Of a stretch of DNA of 64,000 bases, positions 51,901 through 64,000 are shown one piece after another. The DNA lies in NCBI GenBank assembly GCA_003136315.1, contig PLDW01000475.1, positions 15,570 to 79,569 of the forward strand, read 5' to 3'. How positions within the stretch are numbered: position 1 is the stretch's first letter; each line of letters opens with the position of its first letter. The DNA comes from Gemmataceae bacterium. Lineage in GTDB: Bacteria; Planctomycetota; Planctomycetia; Gemmatales; Gemmataceae. The position numbers and the translations under genes were made by a program. Under the pieces are notes generated by a model, which made no database searches, was not told where the DNA came from, and saw only the letters and a list, made by a program, of their open reading frames with translations.

Positions 51901-52986
51901 TCATGACGAGTTGCTCTCGGCCCCCTTCTGATGATGACTCAGGGCAGTCGATGAGGATCCACGGATGAGACCAAGAAATGATCGGAGAAGCCCCGGTCCA
52001 CGCGATTCGTGGTAGAACGAGGCGGCCGGGAGTTGTGCGGTCAACCGTCGGTACGCCGGCCCCAGATTGTGAAAGGGGATGGTCGGGAACAGGTGGTGCA
52101 GGGCGTGATACCGAAGCCCAAGTGGGGCCCATAGTTCCGCCCACCACCCGCCTGGGTGGTCGCTGCTGTCGCGAAACTGACCGAGGTGGTCAGTGGGTTG
52201 GCTACCGGAAGCGAAGTGGTGGGCGCTGAGCATCCTCAAACGATTCAAAAACAGTGCCAGTGTGTACGCTCCGTACCAACACACCAGCCATCGCCACGAA
52301 AGCTCCCCTGCCAGGGTTAACGCAACCGGTGGTAACCACAGCAGAAGGATCACACACTCCGACTGGAACAATCGTTGCCGAGCCTCGGTGGACATCACTC
52401 GGACATAGCTCGGATTGATCACGTAGCTTGAGACCGAGCGGACAAGGAAGCGGCGAAGTCGAGGGACAAACCACGAGATGGGAGCTGCGACCAGAAAGCG
52501 CAAAAATGCGATCGGGCAGATCAGGAAACTGAGTCCAAGGTAATAGAAGATCGCCACTGGACGGCCAGCCAGGGGAAGGTATTCCGGATCGACGGCGGTG
52601 CCATAGGTGGCTCTGCGATGGTGGTCGAGGTGGACCCCTTCATACAGGACCGACGGAACCATCCACGGATGCCCGACAATCCAATTCCAGGCTAGGTGGA
52701 TCCCAGGGATCTTCTCCCGATTCTGGTGGGTCAGTTCATGAATCATGACAATAGCACGATACCAGAGGAGAGCGGCAACGCAAGTCAAAACGACTGTCAG
52801 AAGGAGCGAGCCTTCCCCACTCGCTGCGAACAGGAGTGCTGCCCAGGCGGCTGGTCCGGTGAGGAGCAACTCCCTCCAGTACTGCCACGGGGCGGGGGTG
52901 AAAAGATCGCGGATGAGTGTGTGAGCAGCACGGATCTCAGAAGCAGAGGCGTGGGAGATTGGCGGAGTCACGGTCGGCTCTCTCAA
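51901..52986 (-). CDS. Fatty acid desaturase
   Basis: His boxes 'HELTHQ', 'HLDHHRR', 'HALHHLFP'. TTG start proposed at 52986, just after the stop of the preceding desaturase. Confidence 0.85.
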   Translation of the reverse strand: MREPTVTPPISHASASEIRAAHTLIRDLFTPAPWQYWRELLLTGPAAWAALLFAASGEGSLLLTVVLTCVAALLWYRAIVMIHELTHQNREKIPGIHLAWNWIVGHPWMVPSVLYEGVHLDHHRRATYGTAVDPEYLPLAGRPVAIFYYLGLSFLICPIAFLRFLVAAPISWFVPRLRRFLVRSVSSYVINPSYVRVMSTEARQRLFQSECVILLLWLPPVALTLAGELSWRWLVCWYGAYTLALFLNRLRMLSAHHFASGSQPTDHLGQFRDSSDHPGGWWAELWAPLGLRYHALHHLFPTIPFHNLGPAYRRLTAQLPAASFYHESRGPGLLRSFLGLIRGSSSTALSHHQKGAESNSS

Positions 52987-52988
52987 GA

Positions 52989-54128
52989 TCAGGACGAAGC
53001 GACGGTTGGATTCCCCTCTGGCCGCCGCGCGGGGGTGGTCGGTGTCCCATCGTAATCCAGCCACTGTCGTCGATCGTAATCGTACAGCCGGCAGGTCCGG
53101 AGAATCCGGAGGAGATATCCCGGGGTGAGTCGTTCGACCGAGATGTCCGTTGGGTACGCCGCTTCCAGGATATCCTGGACACGTGGGAGATTGTAGAGCG
53201 GAATCCGTGGATCGACGTGGTGGGCTGTGTGTTCCAGGATGTTGTGCATAAACCGGTTCAAGCCGAATGGGAGAACGACGTGTGTGGTGCTTTCGACGGT
53301 CGCTGTGTAGTAGTCCCAGTCGTCCCGGCTCAAGAAGCAGATCGCCTGAGGGTGCATGTGGTGAACGAGATCCACCAGGGCGATTTGGTATGTGAAGCCA
53401 AGGTACGGCAAGACCATTCCGAGGAGCACCACCCCGAGAGGCCCGACCGGGTCGGCCCACGACCACCCCTCGGCGGCCTGGGTGAGAGCGAACAGCCCAC
53501 TGAACATGGCTACCGCAAACCCGATGACCAGGAACCGGTCGAACCAGTTCTGTCGATGGCGAGTGCCGATACCTTCACGGGGCGGGAAAAGGAGATAGGG
53601 GATCCAGTTCCCGACTGTCCAGTAGAACGTTAACCCGATCGGGGTTCGGAGAAGCCGATACCAACCCCGCCTCCAGACCGATGCGTTGCGGTATTCCTCG
53701 GCCGTCCACGGGATCCACACCATATCGCGACCGCGGACCCGCAGGAAGTTGTGGTGGAGCAGGACGTGTGCGCGAACCCACGCAGCCAGTGGGGTGAACG
53801 TCGGGAAGAACGCCAGCCGGGCGACCCACCGGTTTGCGCGCCGACCGGGGACGAAGCTTCCGTGCCCCGCATCGTGCGCGATGACATACAGGAACCCGAC
53901 CAGCACCGTGGCAGCCAGGACGCACACTCCCTTGAGCCACCACCAGGGAAGGATGACAGCGCCGGCGACACACATCAGATAGGCGATGAACTCGGCGGTA
54001 ACAACGAGGATGGCCGGGAAGTACCGTCGCTGCCGGGCGTCAGCGGGGATGGTTCCCAGAAGTGTCGTTGTGCTGGGTTTGTGCGGAGTCATCCTTCCTC
54101 CGGGGACGCTTTCGGGCCTGAGGTCCAC
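52989..54128 (-). CDS. Fatty acid desaturase
   Basis: His boxes 'HDAGHGS', 'HVLLHHNFLR', 'HTAHHVDPRIP'. GTG at 54128 abuts the PKS stop codon; ATG at 54092 is an alternative. Confidence 0.85.
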   Translation of the reverse strand: MDLRPESVPGGRMTPHKPSTTTLLGTIPADARQRRYFPAILVVTAEFIAYLMCVAGAVILPWWWLKGVCVLAATVLVGFLYVIAHDAGHGSFVPGRRANRWVARLAFFPTFTPLAAWVRAHVLLHHNFLRVRGRDMVWIPWTAEEYRNASVWRRGWYRLLRTPIGLTFYWTVGNWIPYLLFPPREGIGTRHRQNWFDRFLVIGFAVAMFSGLFALTQAAEGWSWADPVGPLGVVLLGMVLPYLGFTYQIALVDLVHHMHPQAICFLSRDDWDYYTATVESTTHVVLPFGLNRFMHNILEHTAHHVDPRIPLYNLPRVQDILEAAYPTDISVERLTPGYLLRILRTCRLYDYDRRQWLDYDGTPTTPARRPEGNPTVASS

Positions 54129-57100
54129 TCAAACCGGGCAAGTCGTCGGATTGTTGGTCGCAAACTGGTCGTGGAATCGTCGGACCAATTCGTCCGGCAT
54201 GAAGTACGTTCCGCATTGTGGTCGGGCGGCTGTGATTTCCAGCCGGGCAAGCCCGTGGTAGTGAGCGAGCAAGTCGACTGGGTCGGCCAACCCCACGGTT
54301 GCCCGGAATCCCTCGAACCGGTCGGTGAGGAGCGCTGAGAGGATGCATGCCGTCAGTTCCCGGGGATCTCTGGCAAGTTCCCGGAGGAACGCCTCTGTCC
54401 CGAAGCGGGCCACCATCTCTTCAGCCCCCGGGGGCAAGAAAACGGATTCCCGGATCGGGTCTGGCAGACGCACCATTCCGGCGTTCCCGAACAGGACATC
54501 GGCTGTCGCCTCGGCCCGTTGGACCGCCCGGTCGAGTGCGAACCCCGGCGGGTAAGAGTCGTCAATCACCACCGTGCCAGGGCGGAGTTGGTCCACATCC
54601 ATGACCTCCGGGACGCTGACGGCTGTGAGGATGGTTGTGGCCTCGTAGAGACCATCTGGCAAGCCGCGGTCGGACGCAAGCACCCGGATCGGCCCCCGGA
54701 AGCCGTGACGGTCGCGAGCACAGCGAGCGATGATCTCGACCTCATTCCGCTTCGCGAAAACATCGCAAAGTGTGATCTCCCGGGGATGGGGGAGAGCATC
54801 CAACAGCAACGCCAAACAGGATTGACCGATCGACCCGAGCCCCAGGACAGCAAGGTGCTCCTGATCGGTCTGGCGACCTGCCCGGTCGAGCATGCTCTGG
54901 AGGTTCAGCACGACCGCCGCAGTCGTTGTCGCGTGGCCCGTTGTCACCCGCAAGCCTGAGTCCCCTCCCAGCCAATCCTGGACCATCCGCCCGTAATTCG
55001 TGGCCGACGGAATGAGTCCGGTCAACGACAGGCACCGGGCGCCCCGACGACGTGCCAACTCCCCGGCCTTGCGAACGAGTTCGGAAGCCCGCGGCGAGCC
55101 AAAGAGTTCCTTTCCCCGGATTGGGAGGGTGATGACACCGATCCGCCCGTAGGGGAGTTCGTAAAGGTGACTGACGAACGGATCGGTTCCGAATAACCCC
55201 CTGAACTGATCGTCTGACACTCCACCGACAGTACATACCCGGTCCGGGACGTAGAGGAGGGCCGCAGCGTCAAACGCCATGTGCTCCAGCACTCCGTTCG
55301 CCGTGGTCCGGGTGAAGACCCGAAGAAATTCCTCGTCAGGGAGCGTTTCGAGGAGATGGGAAGCAGTGACGACCGGCTCCGTCAGCTCTGGCACAGTGGT
55401 CGTGACACTGGTCTCGAGTGGGCCGTCCGTCGCAGCGGGAACGGCTGTGAGTTGGCGGAGGAGAATCTCCGCAAGTCCGGAGAGAGTCGTACCGGCCGAA
55501 AGCTGATCAATTGGGACATTGGACTTGAAATCCCGGTCGATCCGCAGCTTGAACTCAAACGCCATCAGGGAATCGACCCCGAAGTTGGTGAGCGGAACAG
55601 TGGGGTCGAGGCTCGATTCGTCTGCCCTCAAAACGGCGGCCAGCCCGCGTCGGAGGTGGTCGATGAGGTGGCCGAGTCTCTCGCTCGACGGCCGGGCCAG
55701 GAGCGTTGCGGTTGCGTCCAATCCGCCTGACAGAGTCGTCCCGTCGGACCTCTGCTCCAACACCACCGCGAGGCGGTGTGAGAGGCTGGCGGCCGGGTTG
55801 GCCTCAGAAAACCTCGCCCAGTCGACGCTCGCGACACCAACGGAGGTCGCGTCCCGGCGGAGCAGGAACTTCAGGAACGCAAACACTTCGGCCGATGGGA
55901 GAAGGCCGAGACCGACCGACTCCAGGTAACGTGCGAGGGGAGCGTTGTCCGCAACCACTCCCACTTCGGCGAGCGGACCCCAGTTGACTGCCAGGGCCGG
56001 AAGACCTGTCGCACGGCGGTGGCTGGCCAGGGCGTCGAGAAATCGGTTCGCTGCCACGTAGCTTGCCTGGGCGGCTGAGCCGACGAGCGTCGCGATTGAC
56101 GAGTACATGACGAACCAGTCGAGCGGGAGCTCCCTTGTGGCGAGATGCAGATTCCACGCCCCTGCGACTTTCGGGGCGAGAACCTTCTCCAGTGAGGCTC
56201 GGCCAACCCGGGCGAGCGGTTCGTCGAGTAGCACCATCGCGGAGTGAACAACACCAGCGAGCGGTGGGCGTTCGCCCGCGCCCGATCGGATGAGCCGGTC
56301 GACTGCTGTCGGGTCGGTGACGTCACAGACGACAATTTCAACCTCGACCCCTCGGGCGAGAATCGCCTCGACCGTTGCTCGCGCGGTATCGGATTTCGCC
56401 CCGCTCCGGCTAGCAAGGACGAGCCACTTCGCCCCCTGATCAGTGAGCCACTCCGCTGTCCGGAGACCAAGCCCGGACAGGCCCCCGGTGATCAAATAGG
56501 CCGCATCTGCCCGCACAACCGGCCGCTCGTGCGCCAAAACCCGCTGAGGCAGGGAGGTGGGGTCCGGGGTGACCACCAGTTTCCCACGATGCTTCCCCTG
56601 GGCCATGAGTCGGAAGGCATCCCCCACCTGCTCGGTCGGGTATGCCGTGATCGGCAGCGGGGTGTATTCTCCCTGGGTGAAACGTTCGAGGATCGCTCGT
56701 AATCGGCGGCCCACCCAGACCGGTTTCCGGGCAATCACCCCAGCCAGGTCGACTGCATGGAACGACACACAATTGCGGAAGGGGTGCAAGTCGAGCGCTG
56801 CGTTTTGGAAGATGTCTTTCTTCCCGATCTCCACAAACCGGCCATCCGGTTTGAGGAGTTCGAGGCTACGGGGAATGAACTCCCCGGCCAGCGAGTTGAG
56901 GACCACATCGACACCCCGGCCCCCGGTTGCCGAGTGGACCCCACTGGCGAATGAGAGGTTCCGGGAATGAAAGACGTGGTCGACCCCCTGCCCGCGGAGG
57001 AATTCGTGCTTGTCCGGACTGGCCGTTGCGTACACCTCGGCCCCCAGCCGCCGGGCGACCTGGATGGCGGCCTGCCCGACGCCGCCGGCTGCCGCATGAA

Positions 57101-60100
57101 TCAGAACCGATTCCCCCGGTTCCATCCGGGCGACGTCCGACAGGCAGTAGTCGGCTGTCAAGAATGCAATGGGGATGGCTGCCGCTTGCTCGAATGACAA
57201 ATGGGATGGCTTATGGCCAGCGAGAACGGCAGGAACCCGAACATAGTTCCCAAATCCGTGCGCAGCGACGGCCACCACCGGATCACCGGGCTGGAAGTCG
57301 GATACGCCGCTCCCAACTCGGCGCACCACACCTGCAATCTCATCGCCGAACGATCGATTTTCAGTCGGAGCGAGGGGGTAGATATCGAGGGCCTTGAGGA
57401 CATCGCGGAAGTTGAGCCCGATCGCCCGAACCTCGATCTCGATTTCATGAGAAGCTGGCGGATCGGGGGGCACATCGACCCAGGCCAACCCATCCAGGCT
57501 GCCAGGTTCAGTGGTCCGCAGGACGTAGGACGTCGCTGGAGTGCTCGGGACGGTGAGCCAGCCAAGGCTGTCCGGGTTCACCGTCTGGAGTCGCCCGGTG
57601 TATCGGACGCCGCGGCGGTGCGCGATCTCGTCTTCGGGCGGAGTGGAGACGATCTCGCCAAGAGCCTCGTCGATGTGGGTGGCAGGCGTCGACGCGTCGA
57701 GGTCGAGTAGCCGGCAGGTCACGGAGGGTAGTTCTGTCGCGATCGTGCGGAGCATCCCGGCGGCGGGTGCCTGGAGCAGCCCCGAGGGGGAGATCCCGCC
57801 AAACTCTGTATCAGGGGTGGCACCGGCTGTCACGAGCCACAGGGTGAGACCTTTTGGACCACTGGCAGCGAGTTCCTGGGCCGTCTTCCACAATGGATCG
57901 AGTGCAGCCAGCACACCTCCGACGGAAGGCTGTTCGCCGGCACCGATCCCGGCCACCCAAACCACGACAGTCCCGTTTCCCTCGGCTCGCTGGAGAAACT
58001 CTGGAACGAGGTCATTGGAGGCAGTTTGGTGTCCCACCCAACTGCCGAACGCTTGCAGACCGCAGACCAGATCCTGCGCCAACTCGGCTGGGTCGATGAC
58101 CAGCCACGGCCCTGCGAGGGAGGGTGGTGGAGCCGTCTCCTTCGGAGTCGGAGTCCAGACCTCCCGGAATATCCGGCTGACGCTCCGCGTGAGGTGGCTT
58201 TCCTGCGGCTTCGTCACGCAGCAGCACCCTGCAAGAGTGGCAACCCACTCCCCGTCTGGAGTGAAGACATCAATGTCCGCGAACCACCTCACGTCCTGGA
58301 TATGGACATCTCGGATGTGGCAGACAACCGCAACCCCGGCCCGACGCCGCCAGTCGACCCGGTCGACCCGCAGTGGGAGGAACATTGCCTCCCGCTCCTC
58401 GTCCACGGGAGTGGCCCGGAGGACAGCCTGAAGCACACCGTCAAGAAGGGTCGGGTGCAGGTAATACCGGTCGGCCTCATCGTGAAGAGACGGGTCGAGA
58501 GAGATTGCCGCCCACACGTCTGGACCTCTCGTCCAGAGGCGGCGGATGGTCCGAAAGAGCGGCCCGTAATGATGCCCTGCAAGGTCGAAACGGGAGTACA
58601 GGTGACCCGGGGGCTCCTCCACGGCGTCCGCAGGAGGGGTTCGGTCCGTGATCGGCGGGCCAGCTCCTGGGCCGGAGTCGACCCCGCGCCGGGCGGAACG
58701 GCTAAACGGCTCCCAGCCACGGCCCGAGTCCTCGACTGGGCGAGCAGTGACTGCGATCTTGCGGGATCCGGGGTCGAGGGTGGTCCGAACGATGAGTGGC
58801 TCGTCGGCCCAGAGTACACGATCGAAACCCACGTCGTCCAGTCCAACAGGGTCGGCAAATGAGCCGTCGGCTGCCGCTGCCAGCATTAGTTCCAGGTGGG
58901 CAGCAGCCGGAACCACTGCACGGGTGCGGAACCCGTGATCAGGTAGGTAGGGAAACACCGCCGCCGACAGACACACCTCCCACTGGCGGACCGGTCCCGG
59001 CTCCCGCACTCCCAGGAGGGGGTGCGTTGGGGCGACCAGCCGGCGGCGGCGGGAATCTTCCCCCTCTGCCCAAAATGTCTGTCGTTGCCACGGGTGGTGG
59101 GGGAGCTCGGCATGGAGGGTTGGCCCAGGGGCGAATCCTGCCCAGTCGATCGGCACCCCGCGAGCGAACAAAGCGGCGGCCGACTCCGCCAGACATCGTT
59201 GGCCATCTTCTTCACGTTTCAAAGTTGGGACGACGACCGCTTTGCTCGCTGCCCGCTGGACATATCGGAGCAATCCGGGGTGTGGCCCGACCTCGACGAA
59301 CAACTCCGCCCCTCGGTCGACGACGGACCGGACTGCGGCGGCGAATCGGACTGGCTCGCGGACGTTCCTCCACCAGTACAACCCAGTGAGATCCGCCCCG
59401 GCCAGTTCCGTGCCGGTGACCGTGGAGATAAACGGAACCTCACTCGCCCGTGGTGCCAGCCCGTTCACCGATGCGAGGAACCCCCTCCGGCAGGGGTCCA
59501 TCGCAGGGGAGTGGAAGGCATACGGGAACGGGAGCAGCCGAGCGAACGCCCCTCCGGACGCGAGTTGGTTGACGGCGGCTTGAACCGCGTCGGTCTCTCC
59601 GGCGAGGGTCAGGTCCGCCGGACCGTTGTAGGCCGCGACACACAGCCGACCGGAGAATTGGGCGAGGAGAGGGCCTGCGTCAGCCTCCGAGAGCCCAACC
59701 GCTGCCATCGCCCCAGCCCCGCGAGTGGTCTCTTGAGCCGCCGACCGGAAGACGATCACCTTGGCCGCGTCGGCGAGGGTCAGGGCTCCGCTCACATACG
59801 CTGCGGCGACCTCTCCGATGCTGTGCCCGAATACCGCCACAGGACGAATACCCCATGTCCGCAGTAGCCGGTAAACCCCGACTTGAAGGGCAAACAGAAC
59901 GGGTTGCCCGATATCGGATCGGAACACCGACTCGTCTCCGCGTGACATCTCTTCGACGAGGCTCCGACCCCAGTAGGGTCGGAGTGCAGCGTCCAACTCC
60001 TCCACCGTGTCCCGGAAGCGGCAATCGGTCCTGAGCAGGTCTCGCCCCATACCCGGCCACTGGGTTCCCTGGCCGCTGAACACCACAGCAACTGCTGGTG

Positions 60101-61670
60101 AGCTAACACCAGATTGGCCAACGAAACACCCGCGGCCAGAGGGACCGTCGCGGAGCGAATCTGCCGCTGCGGCCGATGTGTCCGCGACGACAACGACCCT
60201 GTGCGAGTGGTGGCTGCGGCGGCAGCGGGCTGCGGCGGCGAGGGTGGGGACCAAGGTCGGGTCGGCTGCCTCCAGAACTGTAGCGTCGGCCCGCATCGCC
60301 TCGACCAGAGCGGAAGCGGAACGTGTGGAGACGGTCCACACGACCCGGTCAGGTGGCCGACCCGCGAGTGAAGGTGCGGTCGGAGGCGGGGATGAAAGAA
60401 CCGCGTGGGCATTTGTCCCACCAAATCCGAACGAGTTCACCCCACCGTACAGGTAGCCATCAGCGGCTGGCTCCCAGGGTGTGATTTCCGTTGGAACCTG
60501 GAGGTGGAATTGGTCGAAAGGGATACGGGGGTTCGGGGCCGCGAAGTGGACGTTCGGAGGGATGGTCCGGTGTTGGATGGCGAGGGCAAGTTTGATGAGG
60601 CCAGCCATTCCTGAGGCGGGCTCCAGGTGCCCCAGATTCGATTTCACCGACCCGATCCAGAGTGGCCGGTCAGCCGGTCGGGAGGCTCCAAGAACCCGGC
60701 CGATTGCCGTTGCCTCGATCGGATCCCCGACAGGTGTTCCCGTTCCGTGTGCTTCTACGTAGCCGACCCGAGCAGGAGGAACACCGGCCAGGCGATAGGC
60801 TTCGGCCAACATGGCCGCCTGTTGGCCCTCGCTGGGAACAGTGAGCCCGCCCGTCCGGCCGTCTTGGTTGGTGACGGTCGAGCGGATGACCGCATAGACC
60901 CTGTCCCCATCGGTGATCGCCCGGGAGAGGGGTTTGAGGATCACAACCGCCGCCCCCTCCGCTCGCACGAAGCCGTCGGCGGCGGCAGCAAACGCACGGC
61001 ACCGACCAGTTGGGGAAAGCATCCCGGCCTTACTGAATGCGACCGCCACGTCGGGCTGAAGGATGGCATTAGCACCACCCACCAGGGCAAGCGGGATGTC
61101 GCCGCGCCAGATCGCCCGGCACGCCAGGTCCAGAGCGACCAGTGCAGATGAGCAGGCGGTATCGACAGACAGACTCGGACCGCGCAGGTCGAAGGTGTAG
61201 GACACCCGGTTGGAGGCAATGCTCAACGCTCCCCCAGTGCTGGTGTGCATGTCCGCATCATACCGACCACGCTTCTGAATGTCCCCGTAATCACACGACG
61301 AGATACCAACGTACACACCGGTTCCGGACCCCGCCAGAGAGGCTAACGGGTATCCGGCGTCCTGGATCGCCTCCCATCCGGTCTCCAGCAGCCACCTCTG
61401 CTGGGGATCCATCCGGGTGACTTCTCTTGGGGTCAACCCAAAGAAACCCGCATCGAAACCCGCGGGTTCACTGACATAACCTCCCCAACAGGAGTAGGTC
61501 CGGCCCGGAGCGCCCCGGTTGGGGTGGTAATTGGCCTCGATGTTCCACCGGTCCGGTGGTGTGTCGGTGACCAGATCGGCCCGGGCGAGGAGCTTCGTCC
61601 AGAGAGTGGCCGGGGAGTGTACCCCGCCAGGGAGTTTGCACCCGATTCCCGTAATCGCGATCGGTTCCAT
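54129..61670 (-). CDS. Type I highly reducing polyketide synthase (KS-AT-DH-ER-KR-ACP) fused to a C-terminal AAR-like reductase
   Basis: KS 'VDTACSSALVALDLA', 'VEAHGTGTPVGDPIE', 'KSNLGHLEPASGMAG'. AT 'GQGTQWPGMGRDL', 'GHSIGEVAAAY'. DH 'LPDHGFRTRAVVP', 'LHPTLLDGVLQ'. ER 'HAAAGGVGQAAIQVARRLGA'. KR 'YLITGGLSGLGLRTAEWL'. ACP 'NFGVDSLMAFEFKLRI'. C-term 'TTGHATTTAAVVLNLQSML...LAVLGLGSIGQSCLALLL...VVIDDSYPPGFA'. Confidence 0.93.
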   Translation of the reverse strand: MEPIAITGIGCKLPGGVHSPATLWTKLLARADLVTDTPPDRWNIEANYHPNRGAPGRTYSCWGGYVSEPAGFDAGFFGLTPREVTRMDPQQRWLLETGWEAIQDAGYPLASLAGSGTGVYVGISSCDYGDIQKRGRYDADMHTSTGGALSIASNRVSYTFDLRGPSLSVDTACSSALVALDLACRAIWRGDIPLALVGGANAILQPDVAVAFSKAGMLSPTGRCRAFAAAADGFVRAEGAAVVILKPLSRAITDGDRVYAVIRSTVTNQDGRTGGLTVPSEGQQAAMLAEAYRLAGVPPARVGYVEAHGTGTPVGDPIEATAIGRVLGASRPADRPLWIGSVKSNLGHLEPASGMAGLIKLALAIQHRTIPPNVHFAAPNPRIPFDQFHLQVPTEITPWEPAADGYLYGGVNSFGFGGTNAHAVLSSPPPTAPSLAGRPPDRVVWTVSTRSASALVEAMRADATVLEAADPTLVPTLAAAARCRRSHHSHRVVVVADTSAAAADSLRDGPSGRGCFVGQSGVSSPAVAVVFSGQGTQWPGMGRDLLRTDCRFRDTVEELDAALRPYWGRSLVEEMSRGDESVFRSDIGQPVLFALQVGVYRLLRTWGIRPVAVFGHSIGEVAAAYVSGALTLADAAKVIVFRSAAQETTRGAGAMAAVGLSEADAGPLLAQFSGRLCVAAYNGPADLTLAGETDAVQAAVNQLASGGAFARLLPFPYAFHSPAMDPCRRGFLASVNGLAPRASEVPFISTVTGTELAGADLTGLYWWRNVREPVRFAAAVRSVVDRGAELFVEVGPHPGLLRYVQRAASKAVVVPTLKREEDGQRCLAESAAALFARGVPIDWAGFAPGPTLHAELPHHPWQRQTFWAEGEDSRRRRLVAPTHPLLGVREPGPVRQWEVCLSAAVFPYLPDHGFRTRAVVPAAAHLELMLAAAADGSFADPVGLDDVGFDRVLWADEPLIVRTTLDPGSRKIAVTARPVEDSGRGWEPFSRSARRGVDSGPGAGPPITDRTPPADAVEEPPGHLYSRFDLAGHHYGPLFRTIRRLWTRGPDVWAAISLDPSLHDEADRYYLHPTLLDGVLQAVLRATPVDEEREAMFLPLRVDRVDWRRRAGVAVVCHIRDVHIQDVRWFADIDVFTPDGEWVATLAGCCCVTKPQESHLTRSVSRIFREVWTPTPKETAPPPSLAGPWLVIDPAELAQDLVCGLQAFGSWVGHQTASNDLVPEFLQRAEGNGTVVVWVAGIGAGEQPSVGGVLAALDPLWKTAQELAASGPKGLTLWLVTAGATPDTEFGGISPSGLLQAPAAGMLRTIATELPSVTCRLLDLDASTPATHIDEALGEIVSTPPEDEIAHRRGVRYTGRLQTVNPDSLGWLTVPSTPATSYVLRTTEPGSLDGLAWVDVPPDPPASHEIEIEVRAIGLNFRDVLKALDIYPLAPTENRSFGDEIAGVVRRVGSGVSDFQPGDPVVAVAAHGFGNYVRVPAVLAGHKPSHLSFEQAAAIPIAFLTADYCLSDVARMEPGESVLIHAAAGGVGQAAIQVARRLGAEVYATASPDKHEFLRGQGVDHVFHSRNLSFASGVHSATGGRGVDVVLNSLAGEFIPRSLELLKPDGRFVEIGKKDIFQNAALDLHPFRNCVSFHAVDLAGVIARKPVWVGRRLRAILERFTQGEYTPLPITAYPTEQVGDAFRLMAQGKHRGKLVVTPDPTSLPQRVLAHERPVVRADAAYLITGGLSGLGLRTAEWLTDQGAKWLVLASRSGAKSDTARATVEAILARGVEVEIVVCDVTDPTAVDRLIRSGAGERPPLAGVVHSAMVLLDEPLARVGRASLEKVLAPKVAGAWNLHLATRELPLDWFVMYSSIATLVGSAAQASYVAANRFLDALASHRRATGLPALAVNWGPLAEVGVVADNAPLARYLESVGLGLLPSAEVFAFLKFLLRRDATSVGVASVDWARFSEANPAASLSHRLAVVLEQRSDGTTLSGGLDATATLLARPSSERLGHLIDHLRRGLAAVLRADESSLDPTVPLTNFGVDSLMAFEFKLRIDRDFKSNVPIDQLSAGTTLSGLAEILLRQLTAVPAATDGPLETSVTTTVPELTEPVVTASHLLETLPDEEFLRVFTRTTANGVLEHMAFDAAALLYVPDRVCTVGGVSDDQFRGLFGTDPFVSHLYELPYGRIGVITLPIRGKELFGSPRASELVRKAGELARRRGARCLSLTGLIPSATNYGRMVQDWLGGDSGLRVTTGHATTTAAVVLNLQSMLDRAGRQTDQEHLAVLGLGSIGQSCLALLLDALPHPREITLCDVFAKRNEVEIIARCARDRHGFRGPIRVLASDRGLPDGLYEATTILTAVSVPEVMDVDQLRPGTVVIDDSYPPGFALDRAVQRAEATADVLFGNAGMVRLPDPIRESVFLPPGAEEMVARFGTEAFLRELARDPRELTACILSALLTDRFEGFRATVGLADPVDLLAHYHGLARLEITAARPQCGTYFMPDELVRRFHDQFATNNPTTCPV

Positions 61671-61694
61671 GCGGGGGGGTCTCGGTAGTCCAGG

Positions 61695-62606
61695 TCAGAC
61701 GACAGTGGGGACAGAGGCGTGTGGTGCAGGTGCGGGCTTCGGCCGCTTCACTTTCCACGCCATACCGACCCGCTCCATAATCCAGATCAGGCACCAGGAT
61801 GCATCTGGCTGCCACCACCGGAGGCCGTGGCGGGCGGAATAGGGGAAGGCGTGATGATTGTTGTGCCAACCCTCTCCCAGAGCTAGCAATCCGACCAGGA
61901 GATTGTTCCGGCTCTGATCGCCGGTATCGTGAGGGTGGCTTCCCCACAGGTGGGTGACCGAGTTCACCGCGAACGTCACCTGGAGGGCTGCGAAGTGGCG
62001 GAGCGGACCACCCCAGAGAAACCCGATCAGAGCGTCGTAGGCGGTCCCGCCAATCAAGAACCCGGCGGCTGCTGGCAACGACATGCCGAGCAGATACCAG
62101 TGGAACCAGTGGCGGTCGATCCAGGCGAAGTCGGCACGCCGAGTCAAATCCCGGACAGTGTTACGGGGATAGACGAATCCGTTCACATACACCCAACCGC
62201 CATGGGCGTGGTAGAACCCCCGCAGGAACCCCAACTTACGGTCTCCCAGGAGATATGGTGAGTGGGGGTCACCGGCCTGGTCACTGTGCTTGTGGTGCCT
62301 GCGATGGGTTGCCACCCAGAAGAACGGCGACGACTGCCCCGCCATGCACCCAAGCACCATCAACACCCACTCCACCGGGCGAGGTGTCGCGAACGACCGG
62401 TGGGTAAAAAGACGGTGATATCCGACGGTGATCCCCACCCCTGTGACGACTGCCATGATCGCAAACGCAATGATTGCGTGGGGTGGGAGTCCTTCAAAGT
62501 AGGCCAACCCGACGGCTGCTGTCGATCCGACAGCGAGCGCGAGGGCAATCGGCCGACCATTTACCCCGCGACAGGCCGTGTATTCGGCCCGGACCGAGTC
62601 ATCCAT
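61695..62606 (-). CDS. Acyl-CoA/acyl-lipid delta-9-type desaturase
   Basis: 'GYHRLFTHRSF', 'WVATHRRHHKHSDQAGDPHSP', 'GEGWHNNHHAFPYSARHGL'. ATG at 62606. Confidence 0.93.
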   Translation of the reverse strand: MDDSVRAEYTACRGVNGRPIALALAVGSTAAVGLAYFEGLPPHAIIAFAIMAVVTGVGITVGYHRLFTHRSFATPRPVEWVLMVLGCMAGQSSPFFWVATHRRHHKHSDQAGDPHSPYLLGDRKLGFLRGFYHAHGGWVYVNGFVYPRNTVRDLTRRADFAWIDRHWFHWYLLGMSLPAAAGFLIGGTAYDALIGFLWGGPLRHFAALQVTFAVNSVTHLWGSHPHDTGDQSRNNLLVGLLALGEGWHNNHHAFPYSARHGLRWWQPDASWCLIWIMERVGMAWKVKRPKPAPAPHASVPTVV

Positions 62607-63011: not shown

Positions 63012-64000
63012 GTGGCTAACATCGTGATCATCAACCCCAAGTTTGAGACGTCATTCTGGGGTTTCGAGTTCGCACTTCCGATTTTCGGGAGGCGTGCCAA
63101 CATGGCAGTTGGAGCGCTCCCATTACTTGCAGCCCTGACGCCACCGGAGCACACCGTCACACTGGTCGATGAGTCGGTGGAGTCAATCGACTTCGAGCAG
63201 GTCGCCAGGGCCGACATCGTCGCCTTGACCGGAATGAACGTCCAGCGTCAGCGGATGCGTGAGGTACTGACCGAGTTGAAGAAGCGAGGCGTGTTCACAG
63301 TTGTCGGGGGGGCATGGGTGAGTATTGAGGAGGAGTACTTCGGCGACCTTGCGGATGTGATCTTCGTTGGGGAGGCCGAGGAGACGTGGCCGGAGTTCCT
63401 TCGGGACTGGCAGTTGGGGAGGCATCGGCATCGTTACGAACAGGCAGCCAAAACCGACATGACCCGCGTTCCGACACCCCGGTACGACCTCCTCAAAACC
63501 GACCGATACTTGTTTGGCGCGATCCAGTTCTCCCGCGGGTGCCCCTTTCAGTGTGAATTCTGTGACATCATTGTCACCTTTGGTCGTCGGCCAAGGCTGA
63601 AAACGGCTGCCCAGATCATTGCCGAACTCGACGCCATGTATGCCAACGGGGTCCGGGACGTGTTCGTGGTGGACGACAACCTGATTGGGAACAAGCAGGC
63701 AATCAAGGGGGTGCTGCGGGAGTTGATCCCCTGGCAGGAGGCCCATGCCTTTCGGGTGGCATTCTTCACCGAAGCCTCCCTCGATCTGGCGGAAGACCAG
63801 GAACTGATCGACCTGATGGTCCGTGTGAATATGATTTCCGTTTTCGTCGGGATTGAGAGCCCGAATGATGCAGCGTTGCGTGAAACGAAAAAATATCAGA
63901 ACGTCAAGAAAGGCACAACGATCCTCGACCGGGTGCACAAGATCCAGAATGCCGGGCTGGAAGTGATGTGCGGTATGATCGTCGGCTTCGACAGCGACGA
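63012..64000 (+). CDS. B12-binding domain radical SAM protein (truncated by window end)
   Basis: GTG start; VANIVIINPKFETSFWGFEFALPIFGRRANMAVGALPLLAALTPPEHTVTLVDE... then 'FSRGCPFQCEFCDIIVTFGRRPRLK' (CxxxCxxC) and 'SVFVGIESPNDAALRETKKYQN'. Not in the supplied ORF track because no stop lies in the window. Confidence 0.88.
   Translation, partial: MANIVIINPKFETSFWGFEFALPIFGRRANMAVGALPLLAALTPPEHTVTLVDESVESIDFEQVARADIVALTGMNVQRQRMREVLTELKKRGVFTVVGGAWVSIEEEYFGDLADVIFVGEAEETWPEFLRDWQLGRHRHRYEQAAKTDMTRVPTPRYDLLKTDRYLFGAIQFSRGCPFQCEFCDIIVTFGRRPRLKTAAQIIAELDAMYANGVRDVFVVDDNLIGNKQAIKGVLRELIPWQEAHAFRVAFFTEASLDLAEDQELIDLMVRVNMISVFVGIESPNDAALRETKKYQNVKKGTTILDRVHKIQNAGLEVMCGMIVGFDSD

Follow-up and report, generated by a model that had tools for sequence, protein, structure and literature searches.

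The window, i.e. the stretch of 64,000 nucleotides analysed here, is part of contig C523 of the Gemmataceae (Planctomycetota) genome G000. We confirmed by an ORF check four tightly spaced open reading frames on the minus strand at positions 51901-62606, in the order D1, PKS, D3 and D4, encoding a highly reducing PKS (HR-PKS) with an AAR-like domain at its C-terminus and three desaturases. The genes and the domains of the PKS are:

61695..62606, minus strand: D1, SCD-type (acyl-CoA Delta9-like) membrane desaturase (303 aa; ATG 62606, stop 61695)
54129..61670, minus strand: HR-PKS with C-terminal AAR-like domain (2513 aa; Pfam and NCBIfam domains, motifs intact)
60393..61670, minus strand: KS (PF00109/PF02801; TACSS, EAHGTGT, NLGH)
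59175..60083, minus strand: AT (PF00698; GHSIGE / YAFH)
58218..59024, minus strand: DH (PF21089/PF14765; His and Asp present)
56568..57518, minus strand: ER (PF08240/PF00107/PF13602)
55968..56504, minus strand: KR (PF08659, E=1.2e-63)
55464..55655, minus strand: ACP (PF00550, E=9.1e-10; DSL)
54156..55337, minus strand: AAR-like / PigE-type thioester reductase domain (GLGSIG at residue 2277; Cys2442 codon 54345-54347)
52989..54092, minus strand: D3, membrane desaturase (367 aa from ATG; 379 aa from GTG 54128)
51901..52971, minus strand: D4, membrane desaturase-superfamily enzyme (356 aa from GTG)

The gap between D1 and the PKS amounts to 24 nt, the PKS stop codon is abutted by GTG 54128 as a possible start of D3, and TTG 52986, a possible start of D4, is located 2 nt past the D3 stop. 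The original prediction of co-directional genes with near-zero spacing holds, its spacing figures being right or nearly so. The true start of D3 is probably ATG 54092, located behind GGAGGAAGG, instead of GTG 54128, and translation of D4 probably starts at GTG 52971 instead of TTG 52986, the former matching the start of the homologue in genome G035 (GTG, MTIPTPK...). Just upstream of D1, a B12-binding radical SAM gene is encoded on the opposite strand (window positions 63012-63998); no such gene was identified beside the cluster in the related genome G092.

Pfam assigns the domain order KS-AT-DH-(ADH)ER-KR-PP-binding to the PKS and detects neither a thioesterase nor a methyltransferase. In a motif scan all catalytic motifs checked were intact, including the cofactor motifs of ER and KR, the KR YxxxN motif and the ACP DSL motif, with Thr replacing Gly in the DH motif HxxxGxxxxP. 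All domains of a highly reducing type I PKS (KS, AT, DH, ER, KR and ACP) are present with their catalytic residues, and both analyses bear out the KS-AT-DH-ER-KR-ACP architecture lacking a thioesterase that had been predicted. Among full-length NCBIfam models, that of the mycobacterial lipid synthase Pks2 (NF041183) comes closest, with 1228.7 bits compared to a cut-off of 2400, i.e. about half of it, so that the PKS has a lipid-type single-module architecture without being Pks2 itself; for the KS-AT region, modular PKSs and mycocerosic acid synthase are the nearest PDB matches. Pks2 and mycocerosic acid synthase share the single-module lipid synthase architecture KS-AT-DH-ER-KR-ACP with the PKS described here, but they have no C-terminal reductase. 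The Phe in the AT motif YAFH presumably indicates malonyl(-CoA) rather than methylmalonyl specificity of our enzyme. The PKS consists of a single module and the operon encodes no loading module; the module would probably be used iteratively. Codons differing between G000 and its relatives do so mostly at the third position, a bias that fits purifying selection.

The C-terminal part of the PKS, comprising approximately 400 residues (~2112-2505), is not matched by any Pfam family. Searching the PDB with phmmer retrieved 9e4s and 9e4x (both E=5e-70 over 372 residues), homologous over nearly the whole length and described in the PDB as 'amino acid adenylation domain protein', a molecule name assigning them to an NRPS in contrast to the fully reducing PKS found here. 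NRPS relatives of the release domain already have solved structures; a literature search on the 9e4s structure returned nothing relevant. Within NCBIfam, the domain matches the N-terminal part of PigE (5.6e-9), and a profile of 12 members matches, among solved structures, PigE (4ppm, 2e-12) and, more distantly, the cyanobacterial AAR SeAAR (6jzu, 5e-4). The PigE model in turn matches all 12 members, the AAR model two of them. The domain is absent from the matches to the long-chain acyl-ACP reductase equivalog TIGR04058 (E up to 1; cut-off 449.7 bits), showing that it is no AAR sensu stricto; in direct sequence comparison its similarity to AAR is weak and partial, and the AF2 model of the domain has a pLDDT of 40, too low to be used for a fold match.

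The nucleotide-binding glycine motif of AAR/PigE-type reductases is present (GLGSIG at residue 2277), and Cys2442 is invariant in an alignment of 12 diverse members. A profile alignment (E=5.4e-9) of the domain family with L055, an aminotransferase-AAR fusion of G000 matching TIGR04058 at 2.1e-26 with its AAR half, places the Cys of the L055 sequence LACMAETLL opposite to Cys2442. TamH is classed as AAR with a putative catalytic Cys887, compared with Cys294 of SeAAR (PMC9594044), and PigE is described as forming an aldehyde by thioester reduction (PMC8341465). A placement of the catalytic site at IDxxYP, according to which the catalytic Cys would be lost, was dropped, since the profile alignment and the TamH paper put the Cys into ELTACILS, where it is invariant. 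The matches to PigE and AAR, the Cys alignment with L055 and the two papers make the assignment as AAR-like well supported; as homology, the AAR-like domain of the original prediction is thus corroborated by 9e4s, PigE, the AAR profile and the invariant Cys, with reductive release as aldehyde being its likeliest chemistry. L055 itself (contig C328, 1557-2444 and upstream) shows the TamH domain order, and open frames of 868-907 aa in the other planctomycetes G657, G529 and G724 give matches looking similar to it.

HR-PKSs carrying the AAR-like domain are encoded in four of the 95 Gemmataceae genomes (G000, G092, G035 and G033). A fifth listed match (E=5e-5) was left out of this count, the match on contig C69 of G076 (E=5e-5) being taken as unrelated, and L003 was rejected as a random hit, its frame being interrupted by many stop codons. 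Elsewhere in the Planctomycetota, the domain terminates NRPS, PKS-NRPS or KS-AT-KR-ACP proteins. It is located at the end of NRPSs in G402, G448, G534 and G544, with the order A-T-C-A-T-AAR-like in the four planctomycete NRPSs checked by Pfam, in a KS-AT-KR-ACP protein of G145, and at the C-terminus of probable PKS-NRPS hybrids in G463 (L023/L024) and G720 (L103), frames of ~5,100 aa whose NRPS part was judged from N-terminal adenylation-like sequence and length. The loci L025, L026, L098 and L101, as well as L099 and L100, encode planctomycete NRPSs ending in an AAR-like domain; NRPSs of this type are predicted to release peptide aldehydes. Copies are also found in Streptomyces, and a Pantoea stewartii plasmid carries a stand-alone copy (L019, 7824-9113) neighboured by NRPS, KS and luciferase-like monooxygenase genes. 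Among the relatives collected, the domain occurs on a fully reducing lipid-type PKS only in the four Gemmataceae, and in the tree these four domains group together as a single clade (100/100) separate from the remaining copies, among them those ending planctomycete NRPSs.

All three desaturases match PF00487 above the cut-off and contain three His boxes each, identifying them as membrane fatty acid desaturases and substantiating the three His-box desaturases predicted from the DNA. D1 (PF00487 E=5.6e-21) matches the acyl-CoA desaturase 1 structure 4ymk (E=1.7e-29), D3 (E=1.4e-26) shows a weak similarity to DesA Delta5 far under the cut-off, and D4 matches PF00487 with E=9.2e-26. D4-like proteins with 34-43% identity are encoded elsewhere in the phylum in genomes without such a PKS, and so is one with 48-50% identity in G076; comparing the neighbourhoods of D4-like genes across the rest of the phylum revealed no functional context common to them. 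In several genomes of other planctomycetes (L077, L078 and L080), D4-like genes adjoin, in divergent orientation, a gene for a stand-alone ketosynthase.

The cluster is split over two contigs in G092. Contig C596 carries a D1 orthologue (71% identical) followed in the same order by the start of the PKS (KS 89.5% identical), and contig C59 carries the rest of the PKS, an inverted D3 homologue (42-43%) and a D4 orthologue (65-66%). A D4 orthologue (58%) directly follows the PKS in G035, and no desaturase is located downstream of the PKS in G033, the contigs of both genomes ending upstream. No D3 homologue was found in G035 or G033, the inverted gene of G092 being the only one. D1 flanks the PKS in both genomes in which that side is readable. 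D4 is present in five of the 95 family genomes, one copy being a fragment; three of the five are among the four genomes encoding the PKS domain, and each of these three has D4 next to the PKS (hypergeometric p ~3e-4 for the co-occurrence, relatedness being ignored). Genes outside the four-gene set differ between the genomes, which sets the operon boundaries at D1 and D4, and as one genome has D3 in reverse orientation and another lacks it, D1-PKS-D4 remains as the core. Synteny in related genomes had been named beforehand as a check on whether the desaturases are unrelated neighbours: D1 and D4 are retained beside the PKS, D3 is not. Judged from sequence, the grouping of the PKS with desaturases is more than chance. 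In G092, a second large KS-AT protein (L002, 11003-16186) is encoded ~2.5 kb downstream of the D4 orthologue.

We propose a model, which we regard as reasonably probable, according to which the locus is a lipid operon combining chain synthesis by the HR-PKS, reductive release as aldehyde and desaturation by the linked D1 and D4, and by D3 where present. The single-module HR-PKS, probably acting iteratively, would assemble, bound to its ACP, a linear acyl chain that is largely saturated; the AAR/PigE-type domain would then move the acyl group to Cys2442 and reduce the thioester with NAD(P)H resulting in a long-chain aldehyde. Double bonds would be introduced by D1 and D4, and also by D3 in genomes having it, before release as acyl-CoA or lipid, or desaturation may alternatively follow the conversion of the aldehyde to an alcohol, ether or ester lipid. 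SCD-type desaturases normally act on acyl-CoA and DesA-type enzymes on lipids, so that the aldehyde itself need not be the desaturase substrate. Iteration, the aldehyde product and the linear chain are steps we infer. The operon probably makes an unsaturated lipid, aldehyde-derived ether or wax-type lipids being possible products.

The PKS and its release domain might act as proposed while the desaturases are membrane-fluidity enzymes placed beside them by chance and not acting on the PKS product, as suggested by G033 lacking downstream desaturases, by D3 being inverted or absent in the relatives and by the presence of at least four more genes for SCD-like desaturases at other sites in G000. 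We consider this unlikely given the very tight spacing in the window and the D1 and D4 orthologues staying beside the PKS while the outer neighbours differ. Concerning the C-terminal domain, the SbnB model weakly matches eight of the 12 members (best 3.6e-6), as would fit an inactive or otherwise acting Rossmann domain, e.g. an SbnB/ornithine-cyclodeaminase-like one, with the chain being handed over as thioester or hydrolysed. The PigE model, however, is stronger and matches all members, conservation extends to the GxGxxG motif and the Cys, and the domain recurs at the C-terminus of carrier-protein enzymes, the place of a release domain, rendering such a function improbable.

AAR supplies the aldehyde for alkane synthesis in cyanobacteria and some membrane desaturase-superfamily enzymes cleave chains, which would suit a hydrocarbon pathway from aldehyde to alkane or alkene with one desaturase-superfamily protein as decarbonylating or deformylating enzyme. 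Yet no aldehyde-deformylating oxygenase (ADO) of the cyanobacterial type was detected in the G000 genome (92.5% complete), weakening the hydrocarbon-like product considered in the original prediction, and neither D3 nor D4 shows any link to a decarboxylase or decarbonylase; this is the least supported reading and we judge it very improbable.

The proposed reductive release of an HR-PKS chain has parallels in known systems. The reductase domains of PigE (prodigiosin) and TamH (tambjamine) belong to the same AAR-type superfamily and have the conserved Cys at the position found in the PKS domain, and PigE as well as the coupled TamA-TamH cascade reportedly convert a thioester to an aldehyde; both reductase domains are fused to an aldehyde-consuming aminotransferase, whereas the domain described here is part of a PKS, and no aminotransferase is encoded nearby. 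SeAAR has the acyl-ACP type of substrate and the Cys mechanism proposed for the PKS domain, but is a stand-alone enzyme working with ADO for alkanes. SDR-type thioester reductase (TR) domains, reductively off-loading PKS and NRPS chains, are functionally analogous but constitute a different family, and the PKS shows no TR match in Pfam.

Every part of the operon belongs to a known kind of enzyme. No described pathway uniting a fully reducing lipid-type PKS, AAR-type release and linked desaturases was found in the searchable literature, which mostly excludes subscription papers, in agreement, within this coverage, with the original view that the gene combination is not a described pathway. We found little literature on AAR-type release domains ending assembly lines, and these have no Pfam family. 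That the locus represents a dedicated pathway, in which an HR-PKS with NRPS-style AAR-type release yields a long-chain aldehyde for a polyunsaturated lipid class new to planctomycetes, is a tentative proposal to which we give somewhat less than an even chance. By virtue of the fused AAR-like domain, a single protein is predicted to lead from malonyl units to a long-chain aldehyde, and the same operon encodes desaturases. If true, this may be of use in oleochemical engineering and would tie planctomycete genomes to a new lipid.
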